Virus record (IMG/VR): IMGVR_UViG_3300031974_004092
Span: 1 to 22,389 of that record
Length of the DNA stretch: 22,389 bases
DNA from: a virus
Reading direction: 5' to 3' (one strand)
Shown: positions 3,088 to 21,571 of the stretch, in pieces
Layout: every line of letters starts with the position of its first letter
Position numbering within the stretch: position 1 is the stretch's first letter
The notes under the pieces: model-generated
Database searches by the model: none
Told to the model about the DNA's origin: nothing
Seen by the model: only the letters and a program-made list of their open reading frames with translations
Program-made: the position numbers and the translations under genes

Positions 3088-3127
3088 ATTATACTCTACT
3101 TTTAACCATTTGTCAAGAACTGTTTTT
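3088..3127 (-). promoter_or_regulatory. Sigma70-type promoter with A-tract (family member 1)
   Basis: On the minus strand: an AAAAAC A-rich block and GTTC lead into TTGACA (3116-3111), 17 bases of spacer, then TATAAT (3093-3088). It matches seven other junction promoters in this window. It would drive the recombination unit (unknown gene, SSB, gp47, gp46). The -10 touches the ATG of the downstream gene. Confidence 0.85.
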
Positions 3128-3134
3128 CTACGCT

Positions 3135-4430
3135 TCAGAGCTGTTGAATGGAATAACCTTGTTTCATATAGTATCCCATTCTGTTAGAAGCCTGTCGTTG
3201 GGCTGTTTTGCCTTTTAAGTGAATATCAATAATCACCGGATCGCGTTTATTATCATGTTTCCTAACAACCCTTCCGATAAGCTGGGTAAGTAGTGGTTCA
3301 TTATTAATAGGAGTGGCCAAGATAAGGCAAGAAAGAGTGTTAACCGATATTCCCTCACTAAAAATAGCTTGAGTTCCGTAAAGTATGTTTTTAGTTCCAT
3401 GTAAAATCTCGTCTATTAGTGTTTCTCTGTCTTCATGCGCTACTTCACCCGTAACACATATGGAATTTTCACCAGTCAGTTCGGCGCAGCTTTTCAAAAA
3501 GTGAACTCGATCGGACACAACGAGCACTTTATGTCCTTTCGCTGCATATGCAGACGCCAACATTGCTACGGAGTGTCGATATTCGTCATTATTTGCGATT
3601 GCATTGACTCGTTTAGCCCAAGGAATATTTGCCCCGTCTGGAAAGCGCACTTCTGACCGATAAATGTGTATTTTCGGCGTTAAAAAGTTTTCTTTTGGCG
3701 GTTTGAAAATATTCGGACTGAAGTAGTCACGAAAAACTACGTGCTTTCCATCTTTGCGCTCAATTGTCCCAGACAAGCCAATCTTATATCGAGCATGGCT
3801 GGTATCAATAATTTTAGCGAAAGTGGGAGAGGAGACGTGATGCATTTCATCTAAAATAATCGTGCCAAACTCTTTCCGAATTTTATCAATGTTTCTATAA
3901 AGAGTTTGGGTATTACCAATACAAATAGGGCTATCGGTGTCAAAACTCCCGCTACCAATAATACCAGGTCTAATTCCATAAACTTTTTCCACTTCTTTTG
4001 CCCACTGATTTCGTAGTGGGACTGTGTGTGTAACCACAAGTGTTTTCTGTCCGAGTTTTCCCGCAATTGCGAGACCTGTAAATGTTTTACCCCAGCTCAC
4101 CCAAGCGTTGATAATACAGTTATCATCCAAGCTGTCATAGACCTCTTGTTGACTTGGCCGTAGCTCAAACGCAAATTTTGGAAAATCGGCAGGAATATTC
4201 AGACGCTTCTCTACGATATCGTAGCCGTCTGGAATAAGGTCTGTTCGTCCGATTGGTATGGATACCAGATTTTCGCGCACCCGTTGCAGATTCTTGATGA
4301 TCTGTGGAGGGTCGTTTGGGTTTTGTGTTGGTATTTTATAGGTGAGTTCGTCCGCGAGCTTTTTCTTCAACTCTGGAGTCACTTCCATAAAAATACGATT
4401 ACTTAATACCGCTTTCATAATTGTCTGCAT
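3135..4430 (-). CDS. uvsW: UvsW-like superfamily 2 DNA helicase
   Basis: A 431-residue SF2 helicase. RPSQQE (91-96) is the Q-like motif, AWVSWGKT (109-116) motif I, DEMHH (194-198) motif II (DExH), SGT (220-222) motif III, and QLIGRVVR near the C-terminus motif VI with arginine fingers. The ATP-binding loop is unusual, with Ala for the first Gly and SWGKT in place of GSGKT. Order, length and N-terminal extension fit the T4 UvsW/RecG-like helicases that remodel forks, unwind R-loops and help switch replication from origin- to recombination-dependent. The start at 4430 overlaps the alternative oxidase gene by 32 bases; an ATG at 4418 is an alternative. It is the last gene of the long block starting at the 11575 promoter. 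Confidence 0.9.
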   Translation of the reverse strand: MQTIMKAVLSNRIFMEVTPELKKKLADELTYKIPTQNPNDPPQIIKNLQRVRENLVSIPIGRTDLIPDGYDIVEKRLNIPADFPKFAFELRPSQQEVYDSLDDNCIINAWVSWGKTFTGLAIAGKLGQKTLVVTHTVPLRNQWAKEVEKVYGIRPGIIGSGSFDTDSPICIGNTQTLYRNIDKIRKEFGTIILDEMHHVSSPTFAKIIDTSHARYKIGLSGTIERKDGKHVVFRDYFSPNIFKPPKENFLTPKIHIYRSEVRFPDGANIPWAKRVNAIANNDEYRHSVAMLASAYAAKGHKVLVVSDRVHFLKSCAELTGENSICVTGEVAHEDRETLIDEILHGTKNILYGTQAIFSEGISVNTLSCLILATPINNEPLLTQLIGRVVRKHDNKRDPVIIDIHLKGKTAQRQASNRMGYYMKQGYSIQQL

Positions 4431-4983
4431 ACCTATGGTTTAAAATACTGTGAGTGCGTTCATCTTCGCGAATACAATGCAACATATCTCGTAGTGTTGC
4501 AGTGCCTGGTAGCCGGTAATATTCAATGGCAGCAAGAGGTGCTCGCACATTCTCTATATGCCCTTCGTCTATTTGTTTAATATAGTCTGTGTAGCTTATT
4601 ACGGCCTCTTCCTCAAAGTAGCCAATCATGCGATGTGCAGTTGTCTGCGAAATCATGTAAAGTGTAAAGTAAAATATTGAAAACAATATCTGTGCTACAA
4701 GAATTATGCCTTTTTCTACTGTAGTAGGCTTCGTTATGTGTAGCACAAATATTAAATGTTTTCGTTCGTTTTCTGCTTCTTCAAGCATATGGTGTATTTT
4801 AGTCCCGTAACCCTTTTTGAGAGTACGAAGACTTGCAAAATGAGTGAGCATTCCCGCAATCATGCCGGGCACACCCGCTACGGTCTCCAGAACTACTGCT
4901 CGATGACCATATCTCTCACGAAAGAACATATCGGCTGTAAACCGAAAGAACTTTGTCATAAATTTTGCAAAAAAATCACTCAT
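4399..4983 (-). CDS. aox: Alternative oxidase (diiron ubiquinol:oxygen oxidoreductase)
   Basis: A 194-residue protein with the signature set of the alternative oxidase family: LETVAGVPGM (E33), AENERKHL (E73, H76), FEEEAVISYT (E124-126, Tyr131) and REDERTH (E175, H178). These provide the four Glu and two His that hold the diiron site, plus the conserved Tyr. The AENER and VPGM forms resemble mitochondrial/proteobacterial AOX rather than the plastid/cyanophage PTOX form. The family oxidises ubiquinol and reduces oxygen to water without pumping protons, lying on the inner face of the cytoplasmic membrane. I chose ATG 4983 over 5007 because GAGGAAA lies just upstream of it and it overlaps the lipoprotein stop by only 8 bases. 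It is complete but N-terminally short. Neighbours are a lipoprotein and isocitrate lyase upstream and a helicase downstream. Confidence 0.93.
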   Translation of the reverse strand: MSDFFAKFMTKFFRFTADMFFRERYGHRAVVLETVAGVPGMIAGMLTHFASLRTLKKGYGTKIHHMLEEAENERKHLIFVLHITKPTTVEKGIILVAQILFSIFYFTLYMISQTTAHRMIGYFEEEAVISYTDYIKQIDEGHIENVRAPLAAIEYYRLPGTATLRDMLHCIREDERTHSILNHRYADNYESGIK

Positions 4984-5173
4984 TAGTTTCCTCATTGTAT
5001 AGGACACACCATAGTCGGGTTCTGTCCTCTGTGTAACATATCATACTACCATAGTACGGCCTACATACGTCTACAGGCTCTATTGTTGATTTATATTCTA
5101 TACAATCTTTATCTTCTTGCGTTGTAACACATCCCCCAAGAAGAATTACCGTTAATAATACATTAAGTTTCAT
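4976..5173 (-). CDS. Small lipoprotein between isocitrate lyase and alternative oxidase
   Basis: A 65-residue protein beginning with Lys, a hydrophobic stretch and the lipobox LGGC (Cys15), so it should be exported, lipidated and anchored to a membrane. The mature part is about 50 residues and holds four more Cys, which could form disulfides in the periplasm. GGAG lies just upstream of the ATG, in the 10-base gap after the isocitrate lyase stop, and the 3' end overlaps the alternative oxidase start. I do not recognise a family. Placement between two metabolic genes suggests it arrived with them or supports their function at the membrane; a spanin-like lysis role is possible but no partner is visible. 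Confidence 0.8.
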   Translation of the reverse strand: MKLNVLLTVILLGGCVTTQEDKDCIEYKSTIEPVDVCRPYYGSMICYTEDRTRLWCVLYNEETNE

Positions 5174-5183
5174 TCTCCAAGTC

Positions 5184-6413
5184 CTAGAACTGTGCTGTTT
5201 CTGTTGAACCCTTGAGCGCTTCGGTAGAACTCCCTAACGCCTTGGTAATTTCGTCAAAATACCCCACACCTACTTCTCGCTGGTGGCGAGTTGAAGTGTA
5301 TCCGTATTGTTCTGCTGCAAACTCCGCTTCTTGCAGGGTTGAGTATGCCAACATTCCGTCACTTTTATATTTACGTGCAAAATCAAATACTGCCATATTA
5401 GTCGAATGAAAGCCTCCAAGAGTGATAAACTGGAACTTGAACCCCATTTTACCTAACTCATGTTGAAAATCACGAAGTTCCGCATCTCCAGGAATGGACT
5501 GTCTCCAGTTAAAGCTCGGAGAGCAGTTATACGCTAACATTGCGTCGGGATTAGACCCTTTGACTGAATCAGCAAAACGCCGGGCGTCTTTGAGACATGG
5601 GGTGCTGGTTTCGCACCACACGAGGTCTGCGTATTGGGCATAGGCGGCACCTCGCTCACATCCCATTTCAAGACCCCCGTGGATTTGCCAGAACCCGTCA
5701 GATGTTCTGTTTTTGATGCTTGCTCCTGCCTGAGAGCTTCTACGTATCCACTTGGTATCCGCTGAACAATGATCGCTGCTGAGTAGCTGTGCGCTCTCTG
5801 CGTCTGTTCTCGCAATGATGAGTGTCTCTGTTCCACAAACGTCAGCAGCGAGACGAGCAGCGTTAAGATTCCTAATGGCATCACTAAGAGGAATAAGAAC
5901 TTTCCCTCCGAGATGTCCACACTTTTTGGCGGAGGCGAGTTGGTCTTCAAAGTGGACTCCTGCCGCTCCTGCTTCGATGAGATTTCGTGCCAGCTCATAG
6001 CTATTTAATACTCCCCCAAACCCTGCTTCCGCATCTGCCACGATAGGCGCGAAATCAAAGCCGTTCTCCGTCTCTGCATATTCGATCTGGTCTTGTCTGC
6101 GAAATGCGTTATTGATGTTACGCACCACAGACGGAACCGAATCGACTGGATAGAGAGATTGATCTGGATATACTTCATTAGACGAGTTGGCCGCAGCAGC
6201 AACTTGCCAACCTGAGCAATAGATAGCTTGAAGGCCGGCTTTAACGTGCTGCACAGCTTGCTGTCCATTGTAAGCGCCAAAGGTGTTAATGTATAAGTTT
6301 TCACTAAACAACTTCCTTAGCTTTACAGCCATGTCTCGAGCAATAGTGTGCTCAATTTTTTGTGTCCCCTGCAACTTTCTTACGGTCTCGGGGGTGTAGT
6401 CTCGTTTTTTCAT
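5184..6413 (-). CDS. aceA: Isocitrate lyase
   Basis: A 409-residue protein closely matching bacterial isocitrate lyase along its whole length. It cleaves isocitrate to glyoxylate and succinate, the first step of the glyoxylate shunt. Visible motifs: SGWQVA (67-72), VADAEAGFGG with Mg-site Asp127 and Glu129, the active-site loop KKCGHLGGK (163-171, catalytic Cys165), ARTDAE (R202), WCETSTP (266-272), YNCSPSFNW (295-303), FITLGGFH (Thr331) and the C-terminal ending ALKGSTETAQF that closes over the site. All catalytic residues I can place are intact. Compared with the roughly 430-residue bacterial enzymes it lacks about 25-30 N-terminal residues. Its ATG overlaps the PhoH stop (ATGA). No malate synthase is in the window. 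Expected in the host cytoplasm as a tetramer. Confidence 0.97.
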   Translation of the reverse strand: MKKRDYTPETVRKLQGTQKIEHTIARDMAVKLRKLFSENLYINTFGAYNGQQAVQHVKAGLQAIYCSGWQVAAAANSSNEVYPDQSLYPVDSVPSVVRNINNAFRRQDQIEYAETENGFDFAPIVADAEAGFGGVLNSYELARNLIEAGAAGVHFEDQLASAKKCGHLGGKVLIPLSDAIRNLNAARLAADVCGTETLIIARTDAESAQLLSSDHCSADTKWIRRSSQAGASIKNRTSDGFWQIHGGLEMGCERGAAYAQYADLVWCETSTPCLKDARRFADSVKGSNPDAMLAYNCSPSFNWRQSIPGDAELRDFQHELGKMGFKFQFITLGGFHSTNMAVFDFARKYKSDGMLAYSTLQEAEFAAEQYGYTSTRHQREVGVGYFDEITKALGSSTEALKGSTETAQF

Positions 6414-10647: not shown

Positions 10648-10949
10648 TAGTCTTCATCCACGCCAAAGCCAGCAGACGCAAGAGCGTCTCCGTCCCAATC
10701 GGTGAGAAAGTCATCTCCATCATCGTAGTCATCAAAGTAATCTGGCACTTCTTCACCAGAGCCATGCAATACTTCTTCTACTACAGTTTGAGTATACTGG
10801 TAGTAATCTGCATGTTCGTCATCAAAGAGATGAAAGTATTTTGACAGACGAGCAAGAGTAACGTCTGCGGCTTGGTAATCGCCTACATCCATATCTCGCT
10901 CAAGTATATCAAATAACTGTGTAATCTTTGGTAGTAATCTGCTGTTCAT
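10644..10949 (-). CDS. Acidic hypothetical protein between cytochrome c and primase
   Basis: About 101 residues from the ATG at 10949, which overlaps the cytochrome stop as ATGA; an upstream in-frame start at 11021 would run inside the cytochrome gene and looks non-native. The N-terminal part is helical (LLPKITQLFDILERD, ADVTLARLSKYF), and the C-terminal third is extremely acidic (DYFDDYDDGDDF and a final GVDEDY). Acidic tails like this occur in DNA-mimic or SSB-like proteins, but no family is recognised. It is coupled at both ends, to the cytochrome upstream and the primase downstream, and so is part of the replication operon. Confidence 0.8.
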   Translation of the reverse strand: MNSRLLPKITQLFDILERDMDVGDYQAADVTLARLSKYFHLFDDEHADYYQYTQTVVEEVLHGSGEEVPDYFDDYDDGDDFLTDWDGDALASAGFGVDEDY

Positions 10950-11254
10950 TTTGCTGGAAATCCCTCTTGAACAAAGACTCCTATAGTTCCAATTTGGCCG
11001 TCTGTTAAGCTCTGCGCCCAAGGAATCATCATAGCAGCTTGAGGGCCATCTTTGTGTCCCATCTTGTAGTGGAGTAGCTTGTTAATGATGTCGTCGGCAG
11101 ACTGGCCTGCAAGAGTTGGTCCAACCCCGCCTTGGCCCATAGCACCATGACAAGTGCTACACATAGCCCAAGGCTGTCGAATATTCTCAAAGCGGTCTTC
11201 TGCAGTAGCCACGGAAGTGGCGACAAGTAGTGTTGTTAATAATAGTGTTTTCAT
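10946..11254 (-). CDS. Exported monohaem class I c-type cytochrome
   Basis: A 102-residue protein with a Sec signal peptide (hydrophobic run LLLTTLLVATSVATA, predicted cleavage before EDRF) and one CxxCH haem site, CSTCH (C32, C35, H36). GVGPTLAGQS (44-52) and an AAMMIPWAQSLTDGQI segment with Met75/Met76 supply the usual class I Gly-Pro loop and axial Met, similar to c4/c5/c553-type domains. Haem would be attached in the periplasm by the host maturation system, and the protein would shuttle electrons to a terminal oxidase or other acceptor. Its ATG shares ATGA with the upstream small gene, and its stop shares ATGA with the acidic gene. A c-type cytochrome inside a phage replication operon is unusual. 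Confidence 0.93.
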   Translation of the reverse strand: MKTLLLTTLLVATSVATAEDRFENIRQPWAMCSTCHGAMGQGGVGPTLAGQSADDIINKLLHYKMGHKDGPQAAMMIPWAQSLTDGQIGTIGVFVQEGFPAK

Positions 11255-11574: not shown

Positions 11575-11614
11575 ATTATACAGCAATCCACAGGGAATGT
11601 CAAGAACTATTTTT
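11575..11614 (-). promoter_or_regulatory. Sigma70-type promoter with A-tract (family member 2)
   Basis: Minus strand: AAAAATAGTTC then TTGACA (11603-11598), 17-base spacer, TATAAT (11580-11575). Perfect consensus hexamers. It lies directly after the helicase stop and is the only clear promoter before the 8-kb block of cytochrome, primase, polymerase, PhoH, isocitrate lyase, alternative oxidase and UvsW-like genes. Confidence 0.92.
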
Positions 11615-13760: not shown

Positions 13761-14516
13761 TTAGTTCTCCAAAAAAGATTTGAGATTTGTTACTATTGTA
13801 ACGCCAGTGTCTCTGGCTTGTCTAGTTTTAGCAGATTCAGTCCCACCTTCATTGATGAGAAAACCTACCTGTTTAGTAAGGCTGGATTTTACTTCGTAGC
13901 CCGCCATATTCAAGGCGTTAGTAGCATCAGCTTTGCTCTTGAAACTCTTCAAGCGTCCACTAATGCACACTGTGCCCTTACTCACAGTGGGCGGAGTTGT
14001 TTCAGAAAAATACCAACCATGAGGCATTACGCCTGCAAAAAAGCTAAGATTAGTGTCTAACCACTCTAATAAATTAGCTGTAGCCTTTGGCCCTAATCCG
14101 GCACGCTCACAAGTGTCTGCATTTATTTCATATATAGTTTTAACAGTATCAGACAGCTTCAGTGTTGCCGTTTTTCCGATTAATGGAATACCAAAAGCGG
14201 GTAAAAGTAGCTCAAGAGGAGCGTTAAATGAATTAACAATCTCGCTCCTGAGCTTGGAGGTCACTCTCTCGGAACCCAACGATGCTAAGATACTCTCGTC
14301 TGATGCGAGGTAAATTTCGGACGGGCAAGTCCAACCCAGCTTCCGAATAGAAGCAGGACCAAGACCTTTTATCTTCATAGTTTTTGCAAAGTGCTCCACA
14401 GACTTGTAAGCCTGCTCGCCGCAAAACGAAGACACGCAGTATAGTAAATCGTTCTTCCACACAAGTTCGCTGTCACAAGAAGGACAATGACTTGGGGCAA
14501 AGATAGATTGAAACAT
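13761..14516 (-). CDS. ligA: NAD+-dependent DNA ligase, C-terminal half (zinc finger, HhH, BRCT)
   Basis: A 251-residue protein matching the C-terminal part of bacterial LigA: a four-Cys zinc finger at the start (CPSC at 11-14, then C27 and C32), helix-hairpin-helix repeats (KIKGLGPASIRKLG, GIPLIGKTATLKL, AGLGPKATANLL) and a BRCT domain in the last 80 residues (TVCISGRLKSF, GYEVKSS, VTIVTNLKSFL). It has no catalytic lysine and must work with the separate adenylation half encoded upstream. The two are separated by 52 bases holding a complete promoter (14543-14583), so the break is not a sequencing frameshift. Split LigA subunits are known in some large phages. It seals nicks during replication. 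Confidence 0.92.
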   Translation of the reverse strand: MFQSIFAPSHCPSCDSELVWKNDLLYCVSSFCGEQAYKSVEHFAKTMKIKGLGPASIRKLGWTCPSEIYLASDESILASLGSERVTSKLRSEIVNSFNAPLELLLPAFGIPLIGKTATLKLSDTVKTIYEINADTCERAGLGPKATANLLEWLDTNLSFFAGVMPHGWYFSETTPPTVSKGTVCISGRLKSFKSKADATNALNMAGYEVKSSLTKQVGFLINEGGTESAKTRQARDTGVTIVTNLKSFLEN

Positions 14517-14542
14517 GAACTACTCCGATTAAGTGAAAGGAT

Positions 14543-14583
14543 ATTATACGACAGATCTGACCTAAATGTCAAGAACTATTTTT
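14543..14583 (-). promoter_or_regulatory. Sigma70-type promoter between the two ligase halves (family member 3)
   Basis: Minus strand: AAAAATAGTTC, TTGACA (14572-14567), 18-base spacer, TATAAT (14548-14543). The TGA inside the -35 hexamer is the stop codon of the ligase N-terminal half. It drives the ligase C-terminal half and the SANT-like gene. Confidence 0.92.
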
Positions 14584-15519
14584 CTCGACGTCCACTCGTC
14601 GAACGATTCGTGGAATGATCTCACCACTACGTATAACTTCAACTTGACAACCTATTTCTAGGTTAAGGGAGCGAATATACTCGATGTTGTGTAGAGTTGC
14701 GCGGCTCACTAGCGCATCTCCCACTTCGACTGGGCGTAAGATAGCAACAGGGCTCACGACCCCTGACTTGCCTACCTGCCACTCAACATCAAGCAATTCT
14801 GTAATAACCCCATCTTTCTGCTCCTTGAGAGCGAAAGCCCCTCGGGGGTGATGAGCTGTATACCCCATTTTATAGAAGGCAGAATAGCTATCGACTCTAA
14901 ACACCTCGCCATCCGTAGGATAGCCAGTTGCATCGAAGTGAGTAATAGTATTAAAACCTTCCTGGGTCAAACGGTCCATTGCTTCGGAAAGACGATCAAA
15001 GTCTACAAAGTCACCCTGAATATCGTATGCTACAAAAACAAGGTCTTTGCAACGAAAACGAAACTCATTCATGTCTTTGAGATTGAGCGACCCCGCCGCA
15101 AAGTTGCGAGCGTTTGTGATCGTATTGGGCGCTACGACCTCACCAGTAATCTGTATCTTAGACCGAATACCGATGTGAACAGGTGCCAGCTCTTCAAGCT
15201 TCAACGTAATATCTCTACCGAGATTACCGTCTCCACGAGTCAAAGCCTGTGCAAGATGTCCATTGATATACATCAAAGACACTGCGGCACCATCCAACTT
15301 AGGAGTTCGCACCATAGGCGATGCGACACCTTCTATAGCATTTAAATCAAAAACCTTCTGTAGAGAATACATCTTATATAGGTGTGGAATACCGTCAGTA
15401 ACAGTATGCCCTACCGTATCGTAGTTGTATATTCTAGCTAATGAATCAAACTCTGCATCCGAGAGTATCGGAGTGCCAGAGTAATACATTGCCGAAGCCT
15501 TTTCAAGAAAATGTTGCAT
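14569..15519 (-). CDS. ligA: NAD+-dependent DNA ligase, N-terminal half (adenylation and OB domains)
   Basis: A 316-residue protein. Residues 12-27 (YYSGTPILSDAEFDSL) match the Ia region that binds NMN. The catalytic motif is KLDG (Lys74, Asp76) in the nucleotidyltransferase domain, with LTRGDGNLGRDIT shortly after. The C-terminal part (KSGVVSPVAILRPVEV, VSRATLHN, IGCQVEVIRSGEIIPRI) is the OB fold. It stops at NSS and a TGA that is part of the next promoter, where normal LigA would run into its zinc finger. The N-terminus is shorter than bacterial LigA. It uses NAD+ to adenylate itself and then DNA 5'-phosphates. The promoter at 15545-15583 precedes it by 25 bases. Confidence 0.94.
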   Translation of the reverse strand: MQHFLEKASAMYYSGTPILSDAEFDSLARIYNYDTVGHTVTDGIPHLYKMYSLQKVFDLNAIEGVASPMVRTPKLDGAAVSLMYINGHLAQALTRGDGNLGRDITLKLEELAPVHIGIRSKIQITGEVVAPNTITNARNFAAGSLNLKDMNEFRFRCKDLVFVAYDIQGDFVDFDRLSEAMDRLTQEGFNTITHFDATGYPTDGEVFRVDSYSAFYKMGYTAHHPRGAFALKEQKDGVITELLDVEWQVGKSGVVSPVAILRPVEVGDALVSRATLHNIEYIRSLNLEIGCQVEVIRSGEIIPRIVRRVDVEKNSS

Positions 15520-15544
15520 ATAGATCCCTCATTGAATAAAGAAT

Positions 15545-15583
15545 ATTATACAGAAAACAACAACAAAAGTCAAGAACTATTTT
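15545..15583 (-). promoter_or_regulatory. Sigma70-type promoter (family member 4)
   Basis: Minus strand: AAAATAGTTC, TTGACT (15573-15568), 17-base spacer, TATAAT (15550-15545). The TAG within the upstream block is the stop codon of the PC4-like gene. It drives the ligase N-terminal half. Confidence 0.9.
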
Positions 15584-15879
15584 AAGTATAGGTCCTTTAA
15601 CAAATCAGAAAAATGCTCCTCTATCACTTCTTTACTTTCTGCTAATGATAGAATCTCTGTCAAACCTATAAACATGTTTCGTGAGTTATCAAAATCAAGA
15701 GGCATAGATATTCCTTCATTTGAAGGTTTCCACTCCTCATTAAAATCTTGATAATATTTTCGCAGATGCAAGTATTCGATCCCTCTAAATTCTTTTATAG
15801 AGAGACGCACTTGTATATGCTTATCTTCATCATAGTGGATAAGTTTTTCATATATCTCAGGGGCTTGGTAGAGTTCCAT
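15577..15879 (-). CDS. PC4/p15-like transcription coactivator-type ssDNA-binding protein
   Basis: A 100-residue protein whose centre reads like the PC4 (transcriptional coactivator p15) fold: VRLSIKEFRGIEYLHLRKYY (24-43), then EEWKPSNEGISMPLD (48-62). The family pattern is strand-EF-G-strand-R-YY, then a W-KP-x-x-x-GIS turn and a closing helix, all seen here. PC4 proteins bind single-stranded DNA as dimers and occur in eukaryotic transcription and in some bacteria and phages (e.g. the T5 type). The gene follows the 88-codon gene by 2 bases and ends inside the promoter of the ligase gene. A role in transcription or in ssDNA handling at forks is inference; the fold call is from motif reading alone. 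Confidence 0.72.
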   Translation of the reverse strand: MELYQAPEIYEKLIHYDEDKHIQVRLSIKEFRGIEYLHLRKYYQDFNEEWKPSNEGISMPLDFDNSRNMFIGLTEILSLAESKEVIEEHFSDLLKDLYLK

Positions 15880-15881
15880 TC

Positions 15882-16148
15882 CTAGTCTCCGTTCTTAAGA
15901 ACAGAAGATAAAGGCATTACACTCGTGACGTTATTTGGCTTTAAAAGCCGAAAACTATCGGTATCCCAACAAAAAAGCAAAAGAGTTTCATTAGTCTCTT
16001 TTGCCCTGTTTTTCTTACCCTGAATATAAGGCGTGCTAAAATCCAACGTGCAAACATTGTATTTTAACTTATTACTATTTTCACTACGATAGGTAATTAC
16101 AGCATCGCCGTAATCATCCACAAGATGAGCTAGTTCTTCTTTTTTCAC
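15882..16148 (-). CDS. Conserved hypothetical protein with a hairpin-masked start
   Basis: An 88-residue protein starting at GTG 16148 with AGGAG a few bases upstream. Visible segments: NVCTLDFSTPYIQ and TLLLFCWDTDSFRLLKP, then VTSVMPLSSVLKNGD. I know similar unnamed proteins from marine phages; function unknown. It sits between a small HTH-like protein and the PC4-like protein, so a role in transcription or translation control is possible. The notable point is upstream: its Shine-Dalgarno sequence can pair with CTCCTA about 45 bases earlier (see 16154-16206), which suggests controlled translation. Confidence 0.82.
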   Translation of the reverse strand: MKKEELAHLVDDYGDAVITYRSENSNKLKYNVCTLDFSTPYIQGKKNRAKETNETLLLFCWDTDSFRLLKPNNVTSVMPLSSVLKNGD

Positions 16149-16153
16149 AAATA

Positions 16154-16206
16154 CTCCTAGTGAAGCAGGTTAGCAGAATCTTCTACTGTGCTGTCTTGCT
16201 TAGGAG
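16154..16206 (-). promoter_or_regulatory. Predicted RNA hairpin that hides a ribosome binding site
   Basis: In the minus-strand transcript CTCCTA (16206-16201) plus AGCA pairs with TGCT and TAGGAG (16159-16154), with a 4-base bulge. Inside lies a second arm, AGTAGAA and TTCTGCT. The last strand contains the Shine-Dalgarno of the 88-codon gene starting at 16148. The 94-base gap 16149-16242 holds no gene. Fold is read by eye. Confidence 0.5.
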
Positions 16207-16242
16207 AATGGAGGACTTACAGCTACGCACGCCTCCCAAAGA

Positions 16243-16602
16243 TTAACTATTTACTGCTGCGAGCACACCTGCAAAATACATTGCTGCTTTGCCAGTCAAC
16301 TTGCTGACGATCTCTTCATCAACTTCTTGACCTGCATCAGTCAATGCTGCTGAGAGAGCTTCGATAGCTGCTGCTTTGGATACTCGAGTGCTAGCTGCTC
16401 CACTCGCTTTTGATGTCCCACCAGAGGCGGGGGCTTTTTTTACATATACGCCTGCTTTTGTAAGCACCATGCGAACCCCGTTGGGGCTTTCTTCGAACTC
16501 GTCTGCGATGTCTTTTACGATCTCCATAGAGTTCTCTGGAGTTGGGTTTTGTGACTCGTAGGCTTCGATAACTTCAGCCTTCTTTTCGTCTGTCCACGCC
16601 AT
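16243..16602 (-). CDS. Small HTH/SANT-like protein, relative of the multi-repeat protein
   Basis: I choose ATG 16602 (MAWTDEKKAEV) with AAGGAAG upstream, giving 119 residues; an in-frame TTG at 16689, also with a good GAGGAAG, would add 29 basic residues. The N-terminal 60 residues form one helical unit (WTDEKKAEVIEAY, MEIVKDIADEFEESPNGVR, MVLTKAGVYV) resembling the WTDE-starting repeat of the 13039 gene product. A Ser/Ala/Gly-rich linker (around 65-82) leads to a second helical segment (AAAIEALSAALTDAGQEV, AMYFAGVLAAV). Likely DNA-binding; the exact role is unknown. It has its own promoter (16719-16758). Confidence 0.8.
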   Translation of the reverse strand: MAWTDEKKAEVIEAYESQNPTPENSMEIVKDIADEFEESPNGVRMVLTKAGVYVKKAPASGGTSKASGAASTRVSKAAAIEALSAALTDAGQEVDEEIVSKLTGKAAMYFAGVLAAVNS

Positions 16603-16638
16603 GCGTTTCTTCCTTCTAGTTTGTGATTGAGTTGCACC

Positions 16639-16652
16639 CGGGCAATTGCCCG
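16639..16652. repeat. Perfect 14-base palindrome upstream of the small HTH-like gene
   Basis: CGGGCAATTGCCCG reads the same on both strands. It lies between the alternative TTG (16689) and ATG (16602) starts, within the transcribed leader or N-terminal codons. It could be an operator for a dimeric regulator or an RNA hairpin with an AATT loop. No U-tract follows, so it is not a terminator. Confidence 0.5.
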
Positions 16653-16718
16653 TGGCTTGTAGTTGTTCTTGGTAAAACCGTTCTGACAAAGTATTACTTC
16701 CTCATTTCAATAATACAT

Positions 16719-16758
16719 ATTATACCGACATAAGCAAAGAAAGTCAAGAAGTATTTTT
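16719..16758 (-). promoter_or_regulatory. Sigma70-type promoter (family member 5)
   Basis: Minus strand: AAAAATACTTC, TTGACT (16747-16742), 17-base spacer, TATAAT (16724-16719). It lies directly after the HNH gene stop and drives the small HTH-like gene and followers. Confidence 0.9.
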
Positions 16759-16760
16759 GA

Positions 16761-17369
16761 TTACGTAATAAAAGAATTGGCTTTTTTACGGTTTTCCTCC
16801 GCAGGTAGGTATTGTAGGTTAGCTTCAACGTGGAGTCCTGAGACAAGTTTTCCTTGAAGCGGTATGATATGGTCTACTTCGTGCCCTTCAGGACAATTTA
16901 CATACATTTCTTTTATAGCATCCAGGTTAGCCCAAGCCATTGTTCTTTGTATTTTTGCAGCCCTTCTTTTTGCTTCTAATGCTGCTCTGATAGCTTTGCC
17001 TTCTTTTGTGCTTCTATACTCTTTATTGACTTTCCTTTTTTTATCTGACGTGTTTTTTACGCTCATACAAGATTTACACTCTTTTGCAAGACCGTTCTTG
17101 CTATATTTATTGGCATGATAGTTGCTATGGGGATGAACTTCTCCGCACACATAGCACTTCATCTTACCTTCTAAATGAAGTAGTTTATAGCCTATAGGGG
17201 TTCGTGTTTGTAGAGGTAAATCTGGAAAAGCCTCTCTCACTTTATTTCGTATTGTGGACGCAGAACAGCCATAATGCTTGGCAATACCTTCTGCAGTATA
17301 GAAAGAGATACACGCATCCTTGAACTCTTCAATAGATACCATATTATTTTTGATTCTGATATTTTTCAT
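16761..17369 (-). CDS. HNH endonuclease with N-terminal helix-turn-helix (homing-type)
   Basis: Up to 202 residues. An N-terminal helix-turn-helix is visible (TAEGIAKHYGCSASTIRNKV). A paired-Cys zinc site (CYVC and CKSC) precedes a very basic linker (KKRKVNKEYRSTKEGKAIR), and the C-terminus holds the HNH core: EVDHIIPLQGK, GLHVEANLQYLP and EENRKKAN. Proteins of this layout are free-standing homing endonucleases or HNH nickases common in phages. It has its own promoter, whose -10 ends about 7 bases before the ATG at 17369, so transcripts may be leaderless; an alternative ATG is at 17342. No Shine-Dalgarno is seen at either. It looks like a mobile insertion between the methyltransferase and the small HTH-like gene. 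Confidence 0.9.
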   Translation of the reverse strand: MKNIRIKNNMVSIEEFKDACISFYTAEGIAKHYGCSASTIRNKVREAFPDLPLQTRTPIGYKLLHLEGKMKCYVCGEVHPHSNYHANKYSKNGLAKECKSCMSVKNTSDKKRKVNKEYRSTKEGKAIRAALEAKRRAAKIQRTMAWANLDAIKEMYVNCPEGHEVDHIIPLQGKLVSGLHVEANLQYLPAEENRKKANSFIT

Positions 17370-17375
17370 ACGATT

Positions 17376-17415
17376 ATAATATCAAAAATAACCAAAATTG
17401 TCAAGAAGTATTTTT
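17376..17415 (-). promoter_or_regulatory. Sigma70-type promoter (family member 6)
   Basis: Minus strand: AAAAATACTTC, TTGACA (17404-17399), 17-base spacer, TATTAT (17381-17376); an overlapping TATAAT would need a 20-base spacer. The TGA inside the -35 is the methyltransferase stop codon. It drives the HNH gene with almost no leader. Confidence 0.8.
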
Positions 17416-18180
17416 AGATATGTGACCAAATGCTTTACTGTATAAATAAATTAACTCCCCTTTAGATAGGCTAGGGTTTCCTGCGGTGTTTTTTGCAGCG
17501 CTTCTAAACTCTTGCTCTAGGCTTATAAAGTTTGACTCTACATCACCTTGTATAAAGTAATTTGAAGCAGCTGCAAAGTTGTTGTGTTCATTTACTTTAC
17601 CGGCATTTCCTCCCACTCGTCGAATACTAAAGTCTGCATTTTCTTTATCTACGAACTTAAAGTGTGGGTGTGTGGTGGGAAGAGTTACTTTTTTCCGTGG
17701 CGTTTCTTGATACTCCCACACCTGGAATACGCAAGGAACTGAATATGGTTTGCCGTCCAGGGTAAAACTCTTTTCGGGAATTTCTAACTCCTCATTTAAA
17801 TGAAAATGTAGATCCAAAGAGTTTTGTATAGATACTTTTCTAAAGGTTTTAGGAACAATAAATCCTATCACGCCCTTTCCCTTTGCGGCATGATTAAAAA
17901 ACTTTTTAGCAAGTGAACTATTCTTTCCGAAAGGAGGATTGCCTAGAAAATACTTATCAGTAATACTTACAGAAAGAAAATCTGCTTGCTCAATTCCATC
18001 TGCTTCGGGCAGAATATCATACATTTTTGTTACGTATGGAGCGAAGGCTCCTGCACCCGCCGCTGGTTCTACTACTTCTGAACCGTGATCTACGTATTTA
18101 TAGAATACAGATGCACAAAGATCCGCTACTTGCGGATCTGTATAAAACTTATCTAGGTCTTTACTCTGCGAAGAGGACAT
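17401..18180 (-). CDS. DNA adenine-N6 methyltransferase
   Basis: A 259-residue protein with SAM-binding motif I EPAAGAGAF (38-46) and catalytic motif IV NPPFG (81-85), the form used by N6-adenine methyltransferases. FNHAAKGKGVIGFIVPKTFRK continues the usual fold, and the C-terminal 110 residues could hold the target recognition part. It transfers a methyl group to adenine in a specific DNA sequence, unknown here. The start overlaps the preceding gene by 20 bases, and together they look like a restriction-modification-type pair. Its stop TGA forms part of the next promoter. It could also simply shield phage DNA from host enzymes. Confidence 0.9.
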   Translation of the reverse strand: MSSSQSKDLDKFYTDPQVADLCASVFYKYVDHGSEVVEPAAGAGAFAPYVTKMYDILPEADGIEQADFLSVSITDKYFLGNPPFGKNSSLAKKFFNHAAKGKGVIGFIVPKTFRKVSIQNSLDLHFHLNEELEIPEKSFTLDGKPYSVPCVFQVWEYQETPRKKVTLPTTHPHFKFVDKENADFSIRRVGGNAGKVNEHNNFAAASNYFIQGDVESNFISLEQEFRSAAKNTAGNPSLSKGELIYLYSKAFGHISKNTS

Positions 18181-18613
18181 CTCGTTTGCCTTTTGGTATA
18201 CTGCATTTTGGAAAATCTTTTATAAGATCCGAACCTTTTTTAAAGATGAGACGGACCTTAGGAAAATCAATAATCTCGTGTATGATGTATATAAGTTCTT
18301 GAGCGTGTTCCTGAGCCTCCTCTACATCAAAGGCTCTGCCTACGCCCAGCATACGACTGGGCATGAACTTACACCCACCATTAGTAAATCCTTTTGCATC
18401 GTAACAGACTCCGTTTGCATCTACGTGGTCAAACCCTTTCTTATCTACAAATGTAAGTTCAGGAAACCACTTAGGAATCTGTCGCTCAAAGAAAGGAGCC
18501 GCAACTCTACCATCTCGAAACAATTCTACGCACTCTTCCCCTTTAAGGTCTGCAAACTGTAGATTCTCTACAGGAATATTGAAGTGGTAGGTTTTATTGA
18601 GTTCGTGTTTCAT
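18161..18613 (-). CDS. Candidate PD-(D/E)xK nuclease paired with the adenine methyltransferase
   Basis: A 150-residue protein. Residues 58-74 read KKGFDHVDANGVCYDAK: an Asp (D62), a beta-hairpin spacing, then D72-A-K74, which fits the PD-(D/E)xK nuclease core, with an acidic residue E43 upstream as a possible extra ligand. GGCKFMPSRMLGVGRAFD (79-96) is a conserved-looking segment that may contact DNA, and the C-terminus returns to short beta-like stretches (KVRLIFKKG). GGAG precedes the ATG by about 6 bases. The 3' end overlaps the adenine methyltransferase by 20 bases, the layout of a type II restriction-modification pair. The gene is clear; the nuclease role is inference. Confidence 0.8.
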   Translation of the reverse strand: MKHELNKTYHFNIPVENLQFADLKGEECVELFRDGRVAAPFFERQIPKWFPELTFVDKKGFDHVDANGVCYDAKGFTNGGCKFMPSRMLGVGRAFDVEEAQEHAQELIYIIHEIIDFPKVRLIFKKGSDLIKDFPKCSIPKGKRDVLFAE

Positions 18614-18638
18614 TTCGTCTCCTATTTAATATTCTATT

Positions 18639-18676
18639 ATTATAGATGCTATAGGGAAAAATGTCAAGAACTTTTT
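18639..18676 (-). promoter_or_regulatory. Sigma70-type promoter (family member 7)
   Basis: Minus strand: AGAAAAAGTTC, TTGACA (18667-18662), 17-base spacer, TATAAT (18644-18639). The TGA inside the -35 hexamer is the stop codon of the upstream 231-codon gene. It drives the nuclease-methyltransferase pair. Confidence 0.9.
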
Positions 18677-19359
18677 CTAAGGTTTACACCATATTGTGTT
18701 AAGTGTTGTAGCTTGCCCAGGTCATAAGCAAGAGCTGAAGCATAAAAGCCTCCAGTCTTTACACGAGCCCACGTATCCTCAGCGTCTTCGTCGTGAGATT
18801 GCAAAACCCAGATTGTATAACACTTACTACTGTATTTCTTTTCGTAGTTTACATCTGAGAAGCCCATATTTTCGGCTTGATAATTTACAGACAGCTCTCG
18901 CTCTACTATCGCAGGCGCTGAATAACGAGCGGACCACACGAGTTCGCCATCTTCAAAATCTTCTGCGTAACACTCCTCTGGAAGGTAGTCGTAAGTGCCC
19001 TCTTGCTTTTGAGGCACCCCTACTCTTTCGATGATGCTTCTGACGAATCCTGAGGATCTGTAGAGTCCGCTTGCAATTTCTGCGATGGAGTCTCCGGAAA
19101 GGAAGCGTTCAACTGCCTCAGCAATTTCTGCGCTTGTAGCTCCTCGTCCGCGATTTTGCTTTTTACGTATCTCTCGATAATTGACTTTATCTTCGAAATC
19201 ATCTATGATTCTCTGGAGGCGGGCTGTATTGTATGCTATATTCAGCATATCGCAAGCAACCTTCTTGGAAATGGGAGTTTTGTCGTTCAGCAAGCTTATC
19301 ACTTTCTGAATATTGGTGTCTGATAAGTTCTCGTGTTCTCTCTTTTTTAGTCTTGCCAT
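18664..19359 (-). CDS. Conserved phage DNA-binding-like protein (two HTH-like segments)
   Basis: I take ATG 19359 (MARLKKREHEN), with GGGA 9 bases upstream, giving 231 residues; an in-frame TTG at 19383 is weaker. The first 60 residues form a helical domain (NIQKVISLLNDKTPISKKVA, DMLNIAYNTARLQRII) and residues near 75-110 form a second HTH-like segment (TSAEIAEAVERFLSG, SIAEIASGLYRSSGFVR). The C-terminal half is acidic and beta-rich (ELVWSARYSAP, YTIWVLQS). Similar unnamed proteins occur in marine phages. A regulatory or DNA-binding role is inference. The start lies inside the preceding small gene in another frame (160 bases shared), and its last codons form part of a promoter. Confidence 0.85.
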   Translation of the reverse strand: MARLKKREHENLSDTNIQKVISLLNDKTPISKKVACDMLNIAYNTARLQRIIDDFEDKVNYREIRKKQNRGRGATSAEIAEAVERFLSGDSIAEIASGLYRSSGFVRSIIERVGVPQKQEGTYDYLPEECYAEDFEDGELVWSARYSAPAIVERELSVNYQAENMGFSDVNYEKKYSSKCYTIWVLQSHDEDAEDTWARVKTGGFYASALAYDLGKLQHLTQYGVNLRKSS

Positions 19360-20960: not shown

Positions 20961-20992
20961 ATTATACCGGTTTTAGCAATAAAAGTCAAGTA
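20961..20992 (-). promoter_or_regulatory. Sigma70-type promoter (family member 8, divergent upstream block)
   Basis: Minus strand: TTAATAC, TTGACT (20989-20984), 17-base spacer, TATAAT (20966-20961). The upstream A-block is less conserved than in the other seven. It lies just after the peroxiredoxin stop and drives the HVDKHVxKM protein, DUF3310, FkbM and followers. Confidence 0.82.
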
Positions 20993-21571
20993 TTAATTGC
21001 CACGTATCCTATCAAGTATATACTCTGGGTTTGTGTAGAGGTAAGGATCCTCTTTACAATTGTCTTCACGACCTTCTTCGATGAACCAGTCTTCGATGCT
21101 ACCATTGTCTACGATACAGGCGTATCTCCATGAACGACGACCAAAGCCAAGATTGTCTTTGTCTACAGTCATATTCATAGCATCTGTGAACTTGCAAGCA
21201 CCGTCAGGAATTACTTGAACGTGCTCAAGGTTATTTGCTTTCGCCCAAGCATTACATACAAATGCATCATTGACTGTCATACATACGATGCCAGTAATGC
21301 CTTCGTCGTAAAATACTCGTGCAAGTTGCTCAAAGGTAGGTAGTTGGTAGGTTGAACAGGTTGGCGTGAAAGCGCCTGGCAGGGAGAACATAAGAATACG
21401 CTCACCTGCAAAAATATCCCATGTATTTACGTCAAGCCACTCATACTGCTTTGTCTCTGGGTTAAATATTCGAGTGTGGAAAGTTACGGATGGAACCATC
21501 TCGGGCAATGCTCTCCAATACCCTGTTTCTTCATACTGATGTCGTTCGTGCTGCGTGCAATAAATTGCCAT
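20993..21571 (-). CDS. Peroxiredoxin (Prx5/AhpE-like thiol peroxidase)
   Basis: A 192-residue protein from ATG 21571, two bases after the lysozyme stop; the in-frame extension to 21670 lies within the lysozyme gene and looks non-native. The catalytic motif PGAFTPTC gives Pro65, Thr69 and peroxidatic Cys72, and RSWRY (146-150) supplies the conserved Arg. SVTFHTRIF, IVCMTVNDAFVCNAW and NMTVDKDNLGFG complete the Prx5-type fold. It should reduce hydrogen and organic peroxides in the cytoplasm using host glutathione/glutaredoxin or thioredoxin. No fused glutaredoxin domain is present. It may protect the cell against oxidants late in infection. It is an auxiliary metabolic gene next to lysis genes. 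Confidence 0.93.
   Translation of the reverse strand: MAIYCTQHERHQYEETGYWRALPEMVPSVTFHTRIFNPETKQYEWLDVNTWDIFAGERILMFSLPGAFTPTCSTYQLPTFEQLARVFYDEGITGIVCMTVNDAFVCNAWAKANNLEHVQVIPDGACKFTDAMNMTVDKDNLGFGRRSWRYACIVDNGSIEDWFIEEGREDNCKEDPYLYTNPEYILDRIRGN

Follow-up and report, generated by a model that had tools for sequence, protein, structure and literature searches.

Bacteriophage T5 is transcribed by the sigma70 RNA polymerase of its host, and an ATATT discriminator is common to its early promoters (PMC7472727, citing Gentz and Bujard 1985). In sigma70 promoters, a proximal UP element with the consensus AAAAAARNR occupies positions -46 to -38 (Estrem 1999, cited in PMC2801614), and similar promoter units placed before unrelated genes have been described in prokaryotes as putative mobile promoters (Matus-Garcia 2012, cited in PMC8049555). 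Here we analyse the virus record IMGVR_UViG_3300031974_004092 (22,389 bases; hereafter the window, within which all feature positions are numbered), where unrelated genes end inside putative promoters that carry a fixed block, AAAAATARTTC, directly before the -35 hexamer. These promoters resemble those of T5 in their sigma70-type hexamers and in the T5-like gene set around them (split ligase, D2, DnaB), and many read TATAATAT followed by A or T, similar to the T5 discriminator. In the T5-like phages sampled, however, a fixed block whose near-invariant C adjoins TTGAC was not observed in this form, nor was the exact block seen in the sampled Demerecviridae. The A-tract of the block is as far from the start site as the proximal UP element and matches its consensus in part, but the block differs in that it extends, through the near-invariant bases of TARTTC, as far as the -35. 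It is highly probable, in our assessment, that compact genes are here packed against conserved promoters, and that the promoter constrains the stop codon rather than having arrived to trim the gene.

The window contains eight putative promoters, all on the minus strand, with exact or near matches to (A)AAAATA[G/C]TTC-TTGAC[A/T]-N17/18-TATAAT (first -35 base at 20989, 18667, 17404, 16747, 15573, 14572, 11603 and 3116; Table 1). TATAAT is found at a spacing of 17-18 in seven of them; the exception, 17404, has TATTAT at spacing 17 and a TATAAT at spacing 20. The end of the block combined with the -35 and the -10 gave five reverse-strand matches in the window versus none with a reversed-pattern control. 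The bare 9-mer TTCTTGACA was rejected as evidence, since it is not enriched in the window (13 occurrences versus 9.2 expected, one mismatch allowed).

Three stops, at 14569, 17401 and 18664, had been assigned in the initial annotation to the TGA of a TTGACA -35, and these coordinates are right. The last Ser is encoded by the preceding TTCT, as had also been proposed, each stop following AGT or ACT and then TCT. On the minus strand, the LigA half of the split ligase ends in AAA AAT AGT TCT TGA (KNSS, stop 14571-14569), the methyltransferase in AAA AAT ACT TCT TGA (KNTS, stop 17403-17401) and the 231-codon D2-like protein in AGA AAA AGT TCT TGA (RKSS, stop 18666-18664). The fourth stop, at 15577, is indeed the TAG of the upstream block: the PC4-like gene ends in AAA TAG within AAAATAGTTC (15579-15577). 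At the remaining four promoters the upstream stop lies in the block once (20993, TAA) and just before it three times (16761, 11616 and 3135).

About 240 loci (designated by L numbers) were collected as relatives of LigA, the methyltransferase and the D2-like protein and by a pattern scan of viral contigs, and yielded 301 distinct promoters after clustering (distinct meaning more than 14 mismatches in 75). Counted from the first T of TTGAC, the stop positions show peaks at +1 (TGA, 43), -6 (TAA or TAG, 48-49), -12 (29) and -13 (21). About 30 gene families stop at the -35 TGA and 21 at the block TAR (TAA or TAG). According to the gene calls, the upstream gene is codirectional at 259 promoters and divergent at 35, and only 2 promoters lie inside a same-strand open reading frame. 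Only 4 genes read past or through in the frame that lacks a built-in stop, versus 91 genes in the two stop-bearing frames (binomial P = 7e-12, ignoring the relatedness of the sequences).

The C-terminal motif KN[SNTIK][ST] occurs at 93 TGA stops, versus one occurrence in 2,113 promoter-free genes. The view that the shared C-termini are set by the promoter is upheld, since the endings disappear in homologues without it, and an unrelated gene has the KNSS ending when it replaces LigA in front of the LigB promoter. In this alternative lineage other genes lie between LigA and LigB, and LigA there ends without Ser; in the same lineage (L242, L176, L184 and others) a 121-residue family located before the LigB promoter always ends at its TGA, with PKN[SNK]S in nearly all members and KNIS in L190. 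The ending therefore belongs to the promoter site. By eye the 121-residue family is GIY-YIG-like, with no Pfam match. Judged from sequence comparison, the promoter thus dictates the protein ending. There is a negligible chance that Ser-stop ends are instead conserved as part of the protein, for example as a C-terminal signal, with the promoter resemblance secondary: KNSS is maintained throughout the LigA clade around the window, but the ending is nearly absent without the promoter and was exchanged with the gene at the LigB site, and the DNA block is conserved where it is non-coding.

The initial annotation had further suggested that promoter units landed on gene ends and trimmed the old C-termini. 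Tails, defined as the residues after the last conserved column in aligned gene families, do not bear out the trimming, because promoter-free homologues, checked for longer tails, have shorter or similar ones. LigA tails measure 7-8 residues (TGA stops), 2-8 (TAR stops), 1-3 (stop upstream) and 0-2 (no promoter); PC4 tails 4-8 (TGA), 1-2 (TAR) and mostly 1-2 otherwise; and helicase tails 5 at a promoter stop versus 0-2. In the methyltransferase family they measure 12 (TGA), 5 (stop upstream) and 4-9 in promoter-free relatives at 58-63% identity, and more distant promoter-free relatives have tails of up to 13 residues. LigA proteins of cultured T5-like phages likewise end short (ERVYD, GKV, EAF and GRAD at their C-termini). 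From these alignments, promoter stops lengthen tails slightly instead of trimming them.

The stop also moves while the promoter remains. The sister LigA genes of L050 and L055 (support 100) differ by an 8-nucleotide indel before an unchanged block, with the stop at the block TAA in one and 10 nucleotides earlier in the other. The methyltransferase genes of L088 and L087 differ in length by 1 nucleotide, the L088 stop lying 21 nucleotides before the -35 and not inside it. In L025 and L026 the PC4 gene has one nucleotide fewer at an A-run, so that it stops at the TGA and not in the block, with the ending VNSS (pair compared: L025/L022). On the LigA tree the TGA state requires 2 changes and all states together 9, and short tails are found in outgroups and basal groups; the inferred direction of change that we favour is from short to long.

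The other part of the suggestion, that promoter units landed on gene ends, finds no support at the main junctions, which are fixed across the group, and holds in a limited form, as cassette exchange in one interval. The junctions carrying promoters are conserved (PC4 followed by LigA or another gene, 112/119; LigA-LigB, 99/110; DnaB, 61/79; helicase, 23/25), and the promoter stays at its junction even in relatives where the gene stops 10-28 nucleotides before it. The idea that promoter junctions are generally mobile was tried and rejected, neighbours being equally stable across promoters as elsewhere, the D2-f5 interval excepted. In that interval (18667-16747, after the D2-like gene) genes have probably been exchanged, with breakpoints at the promoter block. 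At a hybrid junction, L106 agrees with D2-type sequence (16-20 of 20 in each bin) as far as the -35 and beyond it with the window promoter at 16747 (20/20, 19/20), the downstream half of which matches the promoters of both L106 and L086. The endonuclease gene 16761-17369 is flanked on both sides by identical 16-nucleotide copies of the block, AAAAATACTTCTTGAC, and is missing from L086, in which a 16747-type promoter comes directly after the methyltransferase; the gene looks like a recent cassette insertion, and exchange at the block in this interval is likely on the evidence of these junctions. Since L086 and L087 lack the cassette and yet have a KNTS or KKTS methyltransferase end, the insertion did not create the ending. 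We suggest, as a doubtful but conceivable extension, that gene exchange may use the stop-bearing block as a joint: near-identical copies would recombine and swap the genes between promoters, each upstream gene keeping a stop and each downstream gene a promoter, with the cassette and the L106 junction as products.

Taken as a general explanation, mobile promoter units inserted into the 3' ends of genes, with new stops cutting off the old C-termini, would account for one unit adjoining many unrelated genes and for the hybrid junction of L106, and the sites are alike to the putative mobile promoters of prokaryotes in this first respect. They differ in their fixed positions, copy-and-insert events being unseen apart from gene exchange in the one interval. 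With promoters at fixed junctions throughout the group, stops shifting beside them, and promoter-free tails that are not longer (which already contradicts this explanation for LigA and the methyltransferase), we regard it as very improbable.

Conservation of the block was assessed in 87 clustered sites from LigA loci, picked by TTGAC[AT] and TATAAT alone with the block not required. Relative to the -35, A at -11 to -7 is present in 66-99% of the sites (93-99% at -9 to -7), followed by T-6 (91%), A-5 (97%), A or G at -4 (76%), T-3 (85%), T-2 (94%) and C-1 (97%). These bases are equally conserved at sites whose gene ends well before the promoter and at sites for which no codirectional upstream gene was found. 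Because the block is conserved equally where the upstream gene does not use its stop, the built-in stops look like a by-product of the promoter sequence. The alternative that the stops themselves are selected, as a combined stop-promoter element keeping translation out of the promoter or guarding against frameshifts at the A-run, gains from the presence of two stops 7 nucleotides apart in different frames, which catch A-run slippage, and from the 78 genes that stop upstream, of which 41 would after stop loss be caught in the block or the -35 and 17 earlier. Divergent promoters, however, have no gene to stop, and TAR at -6 is within error equally common there (21/35) and at codirectional promoters with an upstream stop (77/107; P = 0.21), with 30/43 at TGA-stop promoters; there is therefore no sign of selection on the stop itself. 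The share of R at -4 is also equal (21/26 divergent, 77/97 upstream-stop and 30/37 TGA-stop), and the TGA belongs to the general -35 consensus. Selection for the stops is thus improbable, although less so than insertion of mobile units.

We return to genes packed against fixed promoters as the reading that would best explain the overlap, the frame rule, the conservation of the block without coding use, the longer tails and the indel-driven switching, all of which are read from the sequences. The sites would be early promoters of the sigma70 type belonging to a marine group of T5-like phages, with the block (about -46 to -36) directly preceding the -35 TTGACW. It resembles a proximal UP element, the binding site of the alpha C-terminal domain, and would be retained for transcription; we infer both promoter activity and UP-element function. 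By an accident of sequence, the block and the -35 would carry stops in two of the three frames, namely TAR, six bases ahead of the -35, and the TGA within TTGACA. When a gene packed against such a promoter loses its own stop, or has it shifted out of frame by a small indel, its reading frame would run into the promoter and end at the TAR (after K) or at the TGA (KNxS), adding a few promoter-encoded residues. Several observations weigh against this interpretation. The short-to-long direction depends on long-branch outgroups and a quick tree, and parsimony counts are directionless. The scarcity of third-frame genes reading past may partly reflect selection against coding through the promoter, and the simple open reading frame caller may overlook some such genes. 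In two promoter-free PC4 genes the tails are longer, at 7 and 9 residues, and D2-like tails differ by one residue only (7 versus 6). The block pattern was itself used to retrieve about half of the loci, although those retrieved with LigA still yield an identical consensus.

The ligase is split at the linker between the OB and zinc-finger domains, with the promoter between the halves (13761-15519, minus strand). The 10-residue tail of LigA and the 10-residue head of LigB together are about as long as the linker of intact Escherichia coli LigA. The possibility that the promoter split the ligase was rejected, as T5-like phages of Escherichia, Vibrio and Aeromonas also encode LigA and LigB separately; the split being common to T5-like phages, it is probably older than the present promoter type. 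In the T5-like phage NBEco002, unlike the window, LigA stops about 50 nucleotides before a promoter-like site.

Overlap of stop codons and promoters is a feature of compact genomes. In Vibrio phage pVp-1, as here, an annotated gene (F404_gp124) ends exactly at the TGA of a promoter-like site, TTGACA-N17-TATAAT, and in Vibrio phage VCPH and Aeromonas phage AhSzw-1 stops are located at -11 or -3. The overlap itself is therefore not unique, and what distinguishes the present group from pVp-1 is the strict block with a frame-ruled, family-wide promoter property and the recurring KNxS ending. A methyltransferase at 38% identity from a different phage lineage (L097-L099) has a Ser-TGA end in TTCTTGACT, followed by a -10-like GATAAT, and is possibly an independent case. 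In the literature searched we found no report of a phage-wide rule placing stop codons in -35 hexamers, which does not prove that none exists.

The window derives from a marine T5-like phage, of which it covers a fragment. The minus strand carries nearly all genes, and a T5-related set is present (split NAD+ ligase, D2-like protein, DnaB-like helicase); since identities to T5-like phages are below 60%, the phage is a distant relative outside the known genera. Megablast of the window gave no DNA-level match to cultured phages. A LigA search of bacterial genomes for a host matched only Paenibacillus, at 30%, and the host is therefore left unnamed. Elsewhere in the window, an alternative oxidase (Pfam AOX 1.7e-64) lies near an isocitrate lyase (Pfam ICL 3e-90; 4399-6413, minus strand). 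The oxidase has one match in the phage collection, Phage C48C1 (OQ984149), whose genome also encodes isocitrate lyase (75% identity); the two are possible respiratory and glyoxylate-shunt auxiliary genes. In the replication gene region, a small protein resembling cytochrome c carries a CxxCH motif and probably a signal peptide (10946-11254, minus strand).

Table 1. Putative promoters of the window and the genes adjoining them
Feature	Position	Strand	Details
Promoter after ResIII-type helicase gene	3088..3127	-	Upstream stop 3137-3135 before block
Promoter after DnaB-like helicase	11575..11614	-	Upstream stop TGA 11618-11616 just before block
LigB half of ligase, downstream of promoter	13761..14516	-	phrog_3498
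Promoter between LigA and LigB halves	14543..14583	-	Block AAAAATAGTTC, -35 TTGACA, N18, -10 TATAAT; TGA 14571-14569 is LigA stop
LigA half of split NAD+-dependent DNA ligase (adenylation and OB), ends KNSS	14569..15519	-	Pfam PF01653/PF03120; phrog_3359
Promoter before LigA	15545..15584	-	Block TTAAAATAGTTC, TTGACT, N17, TATAAT; TAG 15579-15577 is PC4-like stop
PC4-like single-stranded DNA-binding protein, 100 codons, ends K at block TAG	15577..15879	-	Pfam PF02229 8e-11
Promoter after endonuclease gene	16719..16758	-	Block AAAAATACTTC, TTGACT, N17, TATAAT; upstream stop TAA 16763-16761 just before block
HNH/endonuclease-VII-like gene, cassette with AAAAATACTTCTTGAC at both flanks	16761..17369	-	phrog_1035 4.5e-19
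Promoter-like site after methyltransferase	17376..17415	-	Block AAAAATACTTC, TTGACA, TATTAT; TGA 17403-17401 is methyltransferase stop
DNA methyltransferase-like protein, ends KNTS	17401..18180	-	phrog_5172, phrog_799; N6-adenine methyltransferase homologues
Promoter after D2-like gene	18639..18678	-	Block AGAAAAAGTTC, TTGACA, N17, TATAAT; TGA 18666-18664 is D2-like stop
T5 D2-like protein, 231 codons, ends RKSS	18664..19359	-	phrog_3611 6e-40; D2 protein homologues
Promoter after peroxiredoxin gene	20961..21000	-	Stop TAA 20995-20993 at block position of TAR stops (-6)

In this phage group a constraint on DNA binding would thus write protein sequence, about 30 unrelated gene families ending in a few residues that the promoter fixes. 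The loci form a natural set for measuring the movement of stop codons, and comparisons of C-termini must allow for promoter-encoded tails. The KNxS ending before the stop would be a sequence signature for calling early promoters in uncultured T5-like phages.

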